Assembly: GCA_000337115.1 (NCBI GenBank)
Contig: AOIR01000005.1
Location: forward strand, 1 to 51,004
From: Natrinema thermotolerans DSM 11552
GTDB taxonomy: Archaea > Halobacteriota > Halobacteria > Halobacteriales > Natrialbaceae
Length of the DNA: 51,004 bases
Reading direction: 5' to 3'
A program made the translations under genes and the position numbers. Of the stretch, positions 18,296-28,645 are shown in pieces (the first letter of the stretch is position 1; every line of letters starts with the position of its first letter). Below the pieces are notes generated by a model that did not search any database, was not told where the DNA came from, and saw only the letters and a program-made list of their open reading frames with translations.

Positions 18296-18378
18296 TACCC
18301 GGCTATTCGACGCGGCGATCAAAGCCGTTACGAAGCGGCAGGGCCGCACCCACGGCGAGAGCGGTGCCGTGGCCGGGA

Positions 18379-18410
18379 GGGCGGCTCACCGCATTCGCGG
18401 TGAGTCGCCC
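18379..18410. repeat. Stable stem-loop between two minus-strand genes
   Basis: GGGCG-G-CTCACCGC (18379-18392) pairs with GCGGTGAG-T-CGCCC (18397-18410) around loop ATTC: 13 paired bases plus one G.T. The gap 18296-18616 (321 nt) contains no gene I can support. It holds this hairpin, a looser CCACGGC/GCCGTGG pair just before it, and the cassette repeat at 18481-18616. Confidence 0.5.
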
Positions 18411-18480
18411 GACTCGGGGGAGGGCAGGCCGCCGCCCGATACCGACCGCGAGTGAGTGTCGACGGCACGAACGAGCGGAC

Positions 18481-18616
18481 CGACGACTGATGTGAGCGAG
18501 GACTGGAAGGACGAGCGAACGGAAAGAGGAGTGTTTTTGATCGAAATTTTACCGAGGGACATCGCGAGCGAGGCGCTGTTCGCCTCGCTCGCGATAGACC
18601 GCAGCGTAAAATTTCG
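18481..18616. repeat. Dispersed hairpin cassette, copy 1
   Basis: It begins CGACGACTGATGTG, continues to GGAGTGTTTTT (18528-18538), then a nested inverted repeat. The outer arms are CGAAATTTTAC (18542-18552) and GTAAAATTTCG (18606-18616). The inner 15-bp perfect stem is ATCGCGAGCGAGGCG (18561-18575) against 18581-18595 with a 5-nt loop. The right arm ends exactly one base before the stop codon of the DUF5611 gene. Copy 2 at 26866-26976 shares the header, the GGAGTGTTTTT block and the AAATTTT arms but has a different inner stem. It may act as a terminator or be a mobile repeat. Confidence 0.7.
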
Positions 18617-19003
18617 TTAGTCGAAATCGTGATCCGGGTCGTCCTCGACTTTCCGCTTCATCGAGTCGCGTCGTGCCTTGGCGTCACGGCCGGTCGCCTC
18701 GAGCAGGAAGTCGTTCTTGATGTCGACGGCATCGGCCGCGGCCTCGAGTTCGTCGGGGCCGAGTTCGGTGGGGTCGCGCTCGTTGAACTCGACGCCGAGT
18801 TTGTCCTTCTTGCCGGAGTACTCGACGGCACCGACGACGATCTTCTCGAAGACCGGGTTGTCCGGCTCGTCGATGAGGTAGAGGTCGCTGCCCTTGTACT
18901 CCTCGGTGCCGGTGATCGGGCCGAAGTAGTCCTCGACCGTCGATTCCATATCCGGAATGCGCTCCTCGAGATATTCACCGCGACGCATCTTGTACTCCTT
19001 CAT
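18617..19003 (-). CDS. Conserved haloarchaeal protein (DUF5611 type)
   Basis: A 128-aa soluble acidic protein opening MKEYKMRRGEYLEERIPDME. Its core is VEDYFGPITGTEEYKGSDLY then a VFEKIVVGAVEYSGKKDKLG strand-rich block and a charged C-terminal helix (DAKARRDSMKRKVEDD). I recall this family as DUF5611, conserved in haloarchaea without an assigned function. It is single-gene; the cassette repeat directly follows its stop codon. No catalytic motif is visible. Confidence 0.8.
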   Translation of the reverse strand: MKEYKMRRGEYLEERIPDMESTVEDYFGPITGTEEYKGSDLYLIDEPDNPVFEKIVVGAVEYSGKKDKLGVEFNERDPTELGPDELEAAADAVDIKNDFLLEATGRDAKARRDSMKRKVEDDPDHDFD

Positions 19004-26144: not shown

Positions 26145-26267
26145 CTTTCTCGTCGTATCCTCGTAACCAGTATACTAAAGCACTACCGTTCCGTGCAAAT
26201 CTTCGCTCTCCCTCGCGAAACTGCATATTCGTAAATTTCTAAAGGGCACAGTGAGTGGGTGTACCTG
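26145..26267. promoter_or_regulatory. Divergent glnA/lrp promoter region
   Basis: 123 nt separate the two start codons. For glnA, CTTTAGTATA (26171-26180, minus strand) is centred about 31 nt from the ATG. For lrp, TTTCTAAAG (26236-26244) is centred 28 nt before the ATG at 26268. Both transcripts would be leaderless or nearly so. The space between the TATA elements (26181-26235) is where an Lrp site could serve both directions. I see no perfect palindrome there. Confidence 0.55.
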
Positions 26268-26732
26268 ATGACGTACGAAAATCTCGATGCAAAACTAGTG
26301 AATGCACTTCTCGGCGACGGCCGGGCGAGCCTGCGAAGCCTCGCGGAGGAACTCGACGTGTCCGTGACCACCGTCTCGAACCACCTCTCCGATCTCGAGG
26401 AGCAAGGCGTGATCGAGGGCTACACCCCGCGGGTGGATTACGACGCGGTCGGCTACGACGTGACCGCCGTGATCCAACTGCAGGTCGAGGGGAACGCCCT
26501 CCCGGACGTCACCGATACGCTGCGCGACCATCGCCAGATGACCAGCGTCTACGAGGTCACCGGCGACTACGACGTGATCGCCATCGGCAAGTTCGAGGAC
26601 ACCGATGGGATGAACGACCAGATCAAGCAACTGCTGACCGATCCCGATATCAAGGCCTCGAACACGAGCGTCGTTCTCAACGCCGTGAGCGAGAACGAAC
26701 AGTTCGAACTCGAGGTCGAGGACGAGGAGTAA
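26268..26732 (+). CDS. lrp: Lrp/AsnC-family transcriptional regulator
   Basis: A 154-aa regulator. The N-terminal helix-turn-helix spans about 5-60: [40 protein letters not shown]. The C-terminal RAM domain follows ([20 protein letters not shown], then [20 protein letters not shown]), which binds amino acids and sets oligomer state. The ATG at 26268 begins the family N-terminus [15 protein letters not shown] and lies 28 nt below a TATA box; an earlier in-frame start adds three residues. Its head-to-head place with glnA suggests control of glutamine synthetase, as reported for a halobacterial Lrp. Confidence 0.95.
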
Positions 26733-26865
26733 TCGGACGGGTCTTTTTGAACACTCCACAACCGGGGCAGTGGCGACACTAAACGACGGGTAAGATCGGC
26801 GAGTGAACGGTTCGAAGAACCCGAACGACGCCTTTACCGCGAGCGAACGCAGTGAGCGAGCGGGC

Positions 26866-26976
26866 CGACGACTGATGTGGAGACCCGCGTAGCGGGTCGG
26901 AACGGAAGGAGGAGTGTTTTTATACTAAATTTTGCCGAGAGCGCGGCTTCGCCGCGCTCGCAGAGCAAAATTTAGT
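26866..26976. repeat. Dispersed hairpin cassette, copy 2
   Basis: It has the same header as copy 1, CGACGACTGATGTG (26866-26879), and the same GGAGTGTTTTT block (26911-26921). A 7-bp hairpin GACCCGC/GCGGGTC lies at 26882-26898. The outer arms ACTAAATTTTGC (26924-26935) and GCAAAATTTAGT (26965-26976) are a perfect 12-bp pair. The inner stem GAGCGCGGC/GCCGCGCTC (26939-26959) has loop TTC. The right arm ends one base before the thermosome stop codon, the same position as copy 1 beside DUF5611. The gap 26733-26865 shows no gene. Confidence 0.7.
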
Positions 26977-26977
26977 C

Positions 26978-28645
26978 TCACATCATGCCGCCCATGCCGC
27001 CGCCCATGCCGCCCATGCCGCCGGCACCGCCGGGACCACCCTCTTCGTCGTCGCCCTTGTCGGTGGAGAGGTCGCCGGCGGAGATGATGTCGTCGATCTT
27101 GAGAACGAGGTTCGCGGCCTCTGCGGCGGAGGTCACGGCCTGTTCCTTGGCGTGGGCCGGTTCGACGACACCGGCCTCGAAGGTGTCCTCGACGTCGCCC
27201 GAGAAGACGTTCAGGCCGGCCGTGATCTGGCCGTCGTCGTGGGCCGCACGCAGGTCGACGAGCGTGTCGATCGAGTCCAGTCCCGCGTTCCCGGCGAGGA
27301 CGCGCGGGACGAGTTCGAGCGAGTCGGCGAAGGCCTCGACGGCCAGCTGTTCGCGACCGGAGACGGAGTCGGCGTAGTCGCGCAGACGGCCGGCGAGTTC
27401 GACCTCGATGGCACCGCCGCCCGCGAGGACGCGGCCGTCGGAGACGGTCTGTGCGACGACGTCGAGCGCGTCGTTGACGCCGCGCTCGAGTTCGTCGACG
27501 ACGTGGTCGGTCGAGCCACGCAGCAGGAGGGTAACGCCGTGGGCGTCCTCGCCCTCGACGTAGAACAGTTCGTCTTCCTCGTCGCGGGTGACGTCGCCGA
27601 AGCCGAGGTCCTCCTCGGTCGCGCTCTCGAGGTCGGAGGCGATCGCCGCGCCGACGACTTCCTGGAGGAACTCGAGGTCGGACTTCTTGGCGCGTCGCAC
27701 CGCGAGGATGCCTTCCTTGGCGAGGTAGTGCTGGGCGAGGTCGTCGATGCCTTTCTGGCAGAAGACGACGTCAGCGCCGAGGTCGGCGATCGTGTCGACT
27801 TTCTCCTGCAGCTGTTTCTCCTCGCGGTCGAGGAACTTCTGGAGCTGGTCGGGGTCGGTGACCGAGACCTCGGTGTCGACGTCGGTCTCCTCGACTTCGA
27901 TCGCCTCGTCGAGCAGGAGGATGTCGGCGTCCTCGACCGAGTTGGGCATGTTGTCGTGGACGGGGTCCTTGTCGACGATGCCGCCCTCGAGGAGGTCGGA
28001 CTCGCCGGCGCTGCGGCCGGTCTGGGTCTCGATGTTGAGGAACTCGAGGTCGACGACGTTGTCGCCGTTCTCGTCCTCGACGGTGACCTGCCGGATGGCC
28101 TCGACGATGAGTTCGGCGAGATACTCCTTGTTGACCTCGGTGCCCTTGCCGGTCATCGAGGTCTCGGCGGTCTTTCGGAGGAGTTCCTCGTCGCTCGTGT
28201 CGATATCGGTCGCGATGTCGTCGATCTCCTGGCGGGCCTGCTCGGAAGCGAGGTGGAAGCCCTTGATGATCGCCGTCGGGTGGATGTCCTGCTCGAGGAG
28301 GTCCTCGGCGTTTTTGAGGAGTTCGCCGGCGATCGCGACGGCGGTCGTGGTGCCGTCGCCGGCCTCGTCTTCCTGCGTTTCGGCGACCTCGATGATCATC
28401 TCGGCCGTCGGGTTGTCGATGTCCATCTCCTTGAGGATGGTGACGCCGTCGTTGGTGATCGTCACCGATCCCATGGAGTCGACGAGCATCTTGTCCATGC
28501 CCTTCGGACCGAGTGTGGATCGAACGGCTTCAGCGACCGCACGGGCGGCGCTGATGTTGTAATCCTGCGCGTCCTTGTCCTTGACGCGCTGGGAGTCCTC
28601 GCTCATTACGATCATCGGCTGCCCCTGCTGCATTCGCTGACTCAT
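26978..28645 (-). CDS. ths: Thermosome subunit (group II chaperonin)
   Basis: A 555-aa subunit of the archaeal chaperonin, a two-ring ATP-driven protein-folding cage. It opens MSQRMQQGQPMIVMSEDSQR. ATPase signatures: VRSTLGPKGMDKMLVDSMG, ITNDGVTILKEMDI and DEAGDGTTTAVAIAGEL. The C-terminal part has TVSDGRVLAGGGAIEVELA and LDSIDTLVDLRAAH. The tail is the typical Gly-Met repeat (GGMGGMGGGMGGMM) hanging into the cavity. The ATG at 28645 replaces a longer in-frame reading of 101 extra codons that lie across the promoter. GCTTTATGTAG (28672-28683, minus strand) sits 32 nt upstream. Confidence 0.96.
   Translation of the reverse strand: MSQRMQQGQPMIVMSEDSQRVKDKDAQDYNISAARAVAEAVRSTLGPKGMDKMLVDSMGSVTITNDGVTILKEMDIDNPTAEMIIEVAETQEDEAGDGTTTAVAIAGELLKNAEDLLEQDIHPTAIIKGFHLASEQARQEIDDIATDIDTSDEELLRKTAETSMTGKGTEVNKEYLAELIVEAIRQVTVEDENGDNVVDLEFLNIETQTGRSAGESDLLEGGIVDKDPVHDNMPNSVEDADILLLDEAIEVEETDVDTEVSVTDPDQLQKFLDREEKQLQEKVDTIADLGADVVFCQKGIDDLAQHYLAKEGILAVRRAKKSDLEFLQEVVGAAIASDLESATEEDLGFGDVTRDEEDELFYVEGEDAHGVTLLLRGSTDHVVDELERGVNDALDVVAQTVSDGRVLAGGGAIEVELAGRLRDYADSVSGREQLAVEAFADSLELVPRVLAGNAGLDSIDTLVDLRAAHDDGQITAGLNVFSGDVEDTFEAGVVEPAHAKEQAVTSAAEAANLVLKIDDIISAGDLSTDKGDDEEGGPGGAGGMGGMGGGMGGMM

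Follow-up and report, generated by a model that had tools for sequence, protein, structure and literature searches.

A strand-specific folded element with exchangeable hairpins at gene ends in haloarchaea

Introduction

Several described systems lie close to the element reported here. In Haloferax volcanii, T stretches terminate 95% of transcription in a reporter, and 503 termination sites are preceded by a hairpin at a distance of at most 10 nt (PMC7237163). Bacterial REP sequences usually number more than 100 per genome, and some are accompanied by a tyrosine transposase (PMC2817692). The present element resembles REP/BIME in consisting of intergenic palindromic repeats and differs from them in having about 20 copies and a long multi-domain fold. 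Undescribed until now, it is a strongly supported structured element of a whole archaeal order, and its neighbours include genes for the thermosome, PAN, GyrB, DNA polymerase D and ribosomal proteins.

Results

Two copies in the window

The window, that is, the whole stretch of 51,004 nt that was analysed, contains two copies of the element, which a first-pass annotation had placed at 18481-18616 and 26866-26976, where both were found. The shared header CGACGACTGATGTG (18481-18494 and 26866-26879), the shared T-rich motif GGAGTGTTTTT (18528-18538 and 26911-26921) and the AAATTTT/AAAATTT arms were present in both copies as described. The T-rich motif, with up to one mismatch, matched three times in the window against 0.14 expected from shuffles. 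The inner stems were perfectly paired over 15 bp (18561-18595, loop CTGTT) and 9 bp (26939-26959, loop TTC) and had no sequence relation to each other, again in agreement with the annotation. The copies had been drawn too short, as further hairpins lie upstream of the span noted earlier; copy 1 extends over about 18369-18616 and copy 2 over at least 26797-26975. Their parts are as follows.

Copy 1, module A: 18369..18429, + strand; GTGGCCGGGAG, a variable hairpin (18379-18392 pairs with 18397-18410) and CTCGGGGGAGGGCAGGC
Copy 1, hairpin B: 18445..18478, + strand; CGC-GA-GU-GA ... GA-AC-GA-GCG, a stem with tandem G-A mismatches that shows covariation
Copy 1, helix P1: 18480..18534, + strand; header CCGACGACTGA pairs with GAAAGAGGAGTG; hairpin C forms the cap
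Copy 1, T run TTTTT: 18534..18538, + strand; follows P1, a candidate + strand termination site from its sequence
Copy 1, hairpin D: 18542..18616, unstranded; arms CGAAATTTTAC/GTAAAATTTCG around the inner perfect 15-bp stem (18561-18595)
Copy 1, facing gene: 18617..19003, - strand; conserved protein of 128 aa, stop codon abutting D
Copy 2, upstream gene: 26259..26732, + strand; Lrp/AsnC-like regulator by inspection of its sequence
Copy 2, upstream hairpin: 26797..26832, + strand; CGGC-GA-GU-GA-..-GAA-..-GA-AC-GA-CGCC, replaces module A at the thermosome locus and recurs in orthologues
Copy 2, hairpin B: 26836..26863, + strand; within the match to model R1 at 26836-26921 (90 bits)
Copy 2, helix P1 with hairpin C (ACCCGC-GTA-GCGGGT): 26864..26917, + strand
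Copy 2, T run TTTTT: 26917..26921, + strand; from sequence
Copy 2, hairpin D: 26925..26975, unstranded; arms CTAAATTTTGC/GCAAAATTTAG around the inner perfect 9-bp stem (26939-26959)
Copy 2, facing gene: 26978..28633, - strand; thermosome subunit, stop codon about 2 nt past D as called

Model R1 matched copy 1 at 18445-18538 with 71 bits, and hairpin C of this copy is built on GAGCGA/GAGCGA. The 128-aa protein was present in 29 of 29 genomes of the genus. The thermosome subunit facing copy 2 was recognised by its C-terminal GGM repeats, as read from the sequence, and the Lrp/AsnC-like gene has a TTTTT of its own shortly past its stop codon.

Copies in the genome and their module plan

The annotation had counted two copies; the pair is real but the number was wrong. 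In the genome (G000; 3.9 Mb in 68 contigs), the header with up to one mismatch matched 16 times, mostly in real copies, and not at all in the reversed control; the tail with up to three mismatches matched 20 times against two in the control. A covariance model of B and P1 located 25 places, of which 21 were strong (E <= 3e-7) and four weak. A chance two-copy repeat was rejected on this number of copies, as reversed-pattern controls gave about none.

The modules occur in the order optional hairpin A, hairpin B, P1 capped by hairpin C, a TTTT run and hairpin D. The consensus plan from aligned copies is CCGGGAG-stem-CCCGGGGGAGGGCAGGC for module A, ACCGCGAGCGA-loop-GAGCGAGCGG for B, GCCGACGACYGANNN - hairpin C - NNNGARGGAGGAGTGC followed by TTTT for P1, and CGAAATTTTGCCGAG - stem - CGCAGAGCAAAATTTCG for D. 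Copies were first gathered by a pattern that contains TTTT, the header and two of the left GA dinucleotides of P1. The left end of module A was common to 85 of 129 collected copies, with a stem sequence varying among them, and the module was absent from the other 44.

Several variants were observed. In copies without P1 (L189, L193, L319, L324 and L344), hairpin B is followed directly by CCTTTTTTGGTCGAGATTTTTTGCG and then by a D-like hairpin, and the T runs are longer on both sides (CCTTTTTTGG..ATTTTTTGCG). A second type of P1, CCGAGGAAC(C/T)CTCGAAGCCGCGCC...GGCGCGGCTGAGGGGGTGACG..GGCTTTT, occupies the same place before the TTTT run in L298, L301, L311, L314 and L315. Inserts of two to five hairpins, such as ACGCGGCGC..GCGCCGCG..GAACGGCC..GGCCGTGAG, were seen in loops of B, P1 or D (L178-L206, which is the copy 1 locus; L289-L317; L044). 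In G000 the copy upstream of S6e (L330, some 170 to 330 nt ahead of the start of S6e) carries hairpins in a very long chain; an assembly gap (N) lies inside a repeated stretch at this place, so that such arrays may be misassembled.

Fold, covariation and strand

P1 contains three tandem G·A/G·A mismatches. Its three left-side GA dinucleotides were invariant in 115 distinct copies, two of them and the header being set by the collecting pattern, and the GA dinucleotides of its right side were retained in 110 to 115 of these copies. The 3-nt arms beside the GAs covary (TGT/ACG 59, CCC/GGG 22, CTC/GAG 9, CGT/ACG 5, CTT/AAG 2 and CCT/AGG 2). The YR pair of P1 is T-A or C-G with few exceptions among the 115, and the Y-R pair beside the tandem G-A was CT/AG in 43 and CC/GG in 42 of them.

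In a genus alignment of P1 and B from 56 copies, 97.9% of the cells formed standard pairs. Changes on both sides were found in 59 cells against 15.8 in shuffles that leave the relatedness of the copies in place, and the pairing signal was lost when the partners were slid. The most frequent pair at one P1 position was U-G (37/56), and RNAalifold on its own recovered essentially the same helices. Among 48 matches from other genera and families, in an alignment that was fitted to the covariance model and leans toward the structure, 98.2% of the cells paired and 14 of the 15 modelled pairs had changed on both sides, including flips from C-G to G-C, with the tandem G-A retained. The first-pass suggestion that structure is selected is thus supported by the covariation of B and P1, within the genus and beyond it. 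In L278 and L279, from another family, a tandem G-A of B was found replaced by Watson-Crick pairs.

Furthermore, the selection on structure is strand-specific. In 114 of 115 P1/C hairpins and in all 54 B hairpins, RNA of the + strand folded more stably than that of the complement, and D was strand-symmetric in this respect. The predicted gain of the + strand was large under RNA parameters; DNA parameters gave a small one. In the complement of B and P1, TC comes to lie opposite TC and C opposite A, and a minus-strand 3' UTR structure of the facing gene was rejected for these two modules because of the mismatches, the C-A pairs and the poorer fold; such a structure is possible for the symmetric hairpin D. 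The D hairpins pair as TTTT[G..C]AAAA or TTTT[A..T]AAAA in 78 of 81 distinct cases, and a perfect inner stem of at least 7 bp was present in 57 of the 81 against 2 of 81 shuffled, so that pairing of the inner stems holds for other copies as well. The sequence-only view of the first-pass annotation contained no sign of the tandem G-A helix, the strand-specific fold or the orientation toward gene ends.

Position beside genes

Genes were called around 129 copies from the genus and one related genus by a simple codon-based caller (own script), which was checked on the window. Only 33 loci account for all of these copies, and most of the loci are common to several species. At 26 of the 33 (p = 0.0013) the D side lies directly against the stop codon of a gene on the other strand, and the median distance from D to the stop codon was 2 nt in 104 copies. 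By inspection of their sequences, the facing genes include those for thermosome, PAN, GyrB, DNA polymerase D subunits, the ribosomal proteins L10e, S6e and S8e, aIF1A, TFS, EngB and PurF. The upstream gene shows no bias in orientation and often changes between species while the facing gene is constant; a same-strand upstream gene is lacking at roughly half of the loci. The facing genes S6e and S8e run in the same direction as the element, and at these two loci D immediately precedes the promoter region of the facing gene.

A TATA signal was found at 1% of element starts against 34% of gene starts, indicating that the element has no obvious promoter of its own; an independent TATA-driven small RNA starting from module A was rejected for lack of this signal. 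Among other families and genera, back-to-back pairs facing outward at about 50 to 200 bp from each other were noted (L273, L275, L276, L281 and L282). Copies just before dnaJ were seen in G004 (L087), past the end of a DnaK-like gene, and on the Natrinema thermotolerans megaplasmid CP031304.1 (L287). One or two copies (L067 and L159) seemingly lie beside a stable RNA gene that by eye resembles signal recognition particle RNA.

Distribution

With the covariance model, 110 of 121 genomes and 27 of 29 genera of the family were positive, the highest count being 32 matches. Positive genomes were also found in several other families of the order, in places again with up to 32 matches, and copies within the genus ranged from 2 to about 30 per genome. 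When 120 genomes across the phylum were searched, nine matched, eight of them from members of the order; the ninth, marginal at 7e-4, was the one match among about 100 genomes outside the order. BLAST against plasmids returned Natrinema, Haloterrigena, Natronorubrum, Halomontanus and Halostagnicola and a short match in Halobaculum, from which the family is taken to be Natrialbaceae; the core consensus matched megaplasmids of Natrinema thermotolerans and others, and copy 1 used as query against the plasmids gave no match. The phage collection contained no copies, and a DNA pattern scan of a contig collection returned unrelated bacterial contigs. None of 4227 Rfam covariance models reached its gathering score in the window, and a permissive Rfam scan of both copies gave matches only far below threshold.

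Inheritance and replacement of hairpins

Five loci were traced over the genus by protein searches, in which the motif was not used for selection. The element was present in most species at most of these loci, decayed in some and absent in others; at locus 1 it was lost in G020, G028 and G022. Comparison of several loci over 28 or 29 species revealed occupied, decayed and lost sites and no clean pre-insertion site. The copies are vertically inherited, and since they are mostly fixed at their loci and decaying there, they have probably not been recently mobile. In G035, two inverted copies about 1 kb apart (L164:1490-1602 and about 2529-2680) stand in different gene-end contexts; being nearly identical over 112 bp, with different D stems, they point to a recent copying event.

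We compared 40 orthologous pairs from four close species, in which the facing genes were 95.4% identical on average. Hairpin C was identical in 12 of these pairs and replaced in 21, hairpin D was replaced in 34, and the replaced C and D hairpins were still paired. Whole hairpin cassettes are therefore swapped at orthologous sites between close species, in line with the earlier proposal of a specific diversifying mechanism. Modules B, C and D are combined independently. Identical C hairpins occurred in 4 of 553 same-genome pairs of different loci against 24 of 303 orthologue pairs, and 8 of 19 shared C types were found at two or more loci. On the first of these counts, gene conversion within the genome was rejected as the sole source of new stems, and other collected copies of the same genome are for the most part not the donors.

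Discussion

We give nearly an even chance to the reading that the element is a strand-specific folded terminator or insulator bordering housekeeping genes, whose hairpins turn over as cassettes. The strand pointing at the facing gene would fold into hairpins A and B and into P1 with its three tandem G-A mismatches, followed by the T run and then by the palindromic hairpin D with T runs on both strands. The + (P1) strand would be transcribed by RNA polymerase running toward the facing gene, either by readthrough from an upstream gene or antisense from a divergent promoter; this polymerase would make the fold and be released at the T runs. The facing gene itself may end on the other T run of D, just past its stop codon. 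Selection maintains the frame, while each of the hairpins B, C and D is swapped as a complete cassette.

The covariation, the conserved tandem G-A and the stability of the + strand are consistent with a terminator or insulator. So is the placing of T runs: an intergenic TTTT(T) follows P1, the P1/C helix ends directly at this presumed termination site, both D arms contain T runs, and copies without P1 have longer ones. The conservation of the T run is partly built in, as the collecting pattern requires TTTT; orthologous sites fetched by protein mostly retain it. In addition, D lies at opposite-strand stop codons, the upstream orientation is unbiased, the element start has no TATA signal, D precedes the promoter region at S6e and S8e, and outward-facing pairs occur back to back in other families. 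Against the terminator or insulator, genes still function after loss of the element, as at locus 1 in G020, G028 and G022, and about half of the loci are without a same-strand upstream gene. The elaborate conserved fold also seems to go beyond what termination needs, because termination in haloarchaea is already efficient at a plain T run.

A wider form of this proposal, which is possible though we hold it with considerable doubt, is that order-wide folded border elements guard housekeeping 3' ends from incoming transcription, with hairpins renewed as complete cassettes by a DNA-level process such as foldback copying or short-tract exchange. Structure would then evolve by stem swaps and not by point compensation, and renewal of complete cassettes would explain why sequence is lost while pairing is kept.

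We think it unlikely that the element is a long-domesticated non-autonomous mobile element of the PATE, MITE or REP type, with single-stranded hairpins that were once recognised by a transposase and with copies that landed by gene ends and are now inherited and decaying in place. As a dispersed multi-copy family with defined ends it has the general appearance of one, and the near-identical 112-bp cores in G035, the megaplasmid copies and the hairpin inserts in hairpin loops, which recall SMR-A inserted in PATE palindromes (PMC3119063), could be so explained. However, the 129 copies at just 33 loci mostly common to several species, the losses and remnants in place of clean empty sites, the compensatory evolution of one helix across families, the tight tie to stop codons of housekeeping genes and the absence from the phage collection argue against it. 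By inspection, no MITE-type terminal inverted repeat links the left end GTGGCCGGGAG with the end of D.

An element acting at the DNA level, with single-stranded or cruciform hairpins serving chromosome architecture, replication or recombination and RNA irrelevant, appears improbable. It would account for the strand symmetry of D and for the loops: by our own scripts, 3-nt loops were present in 201 of 366 distinct perfect hairpins against 18% after shuffling, mostly as C-GNA-G or its complement C-TNC-G, with C-GAA-G and C-TTC-G the commonest. In DNA, both d(cGNAg) triloops and GAGCGA duplexes, the latter with sheared G-A pairs, have unusual stability, and RNA prefers tetraloops. The D triloops were GNA in 19 and TNC in 26 cases; in B, 21 of 27 were GNA on the + strand and none was TNC. 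It would not account for B and P1 being strand-specific and oriented toward gene ends, for a + strand gain that is large only with RNA parameters or for the frequent U-G pairs. The folding molecule would be RNA, or perhaps single-stranded DNA. Given the exceptional stability of cGNAg triloops in DNA, hairpins may plausibly be renewed through a step at the DNA level. A trans- or cis-acting noncoding RNA, released as such and binding protein through the tandem G-A helix, is likewise improbable, given a start without promoter signal, a module A missing from 44 of 129 copies and 2 to about 30 copies per genome, even though P1 is conserved in sequence beyond the needs of pairing, keeps its tandem G-A in nearly all copies of several families and has U-G as the commonest pair at one position.

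The element also offers a natural experiment on the evolution of RNA or DNA stems, with hairpins untouched or wholly replaced, and still paired, beside genes about 95% identical. If it is a directional terminator, it would bear on the separation of convergent and antisense transcription in compact archaeal genomes and would provide a ready set of halophile insulators.

Among known systems, the kink-turn (k-turn) RNA motif likewise has tandem G-A pairs within a helix; it was rejected, as the element has no 3-nt bulge and a covarying Y-R pair directly flanks the tandem G-A. The PATEs of Haloquadratum walsbyi (PMC3119063) are, like the element, short noncoding haloarchaeal palindromic repeats with heterogeneous copies and without terminal inverted repeats, which in the element were looked for by inspection. 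Unlike PATEs, the element resides mostly at conserved loci throughout the genus, its helix covaries across families, and no strain-specific insertion was seen in the species-level comparison of 28 or 29 species. The SMR-A of Haloquadratum, hairpin-rich pieces inside the palindromes of another element (PMC3119063), resemble the inserts in the loops of B and D, a likeness of arrangement that is limited to these inserts. The terminators of Haloferax volcanii (PMC7237163) share with the element an intergenic T run and a hairpin shortly upstream; we found described there neither a conserved sequence family nor a tandem G-A helix, an exchange of cassettes or an orientation facing gene ends. The element is likened to them by its sequence and predicted fold, as a candidate terminator.
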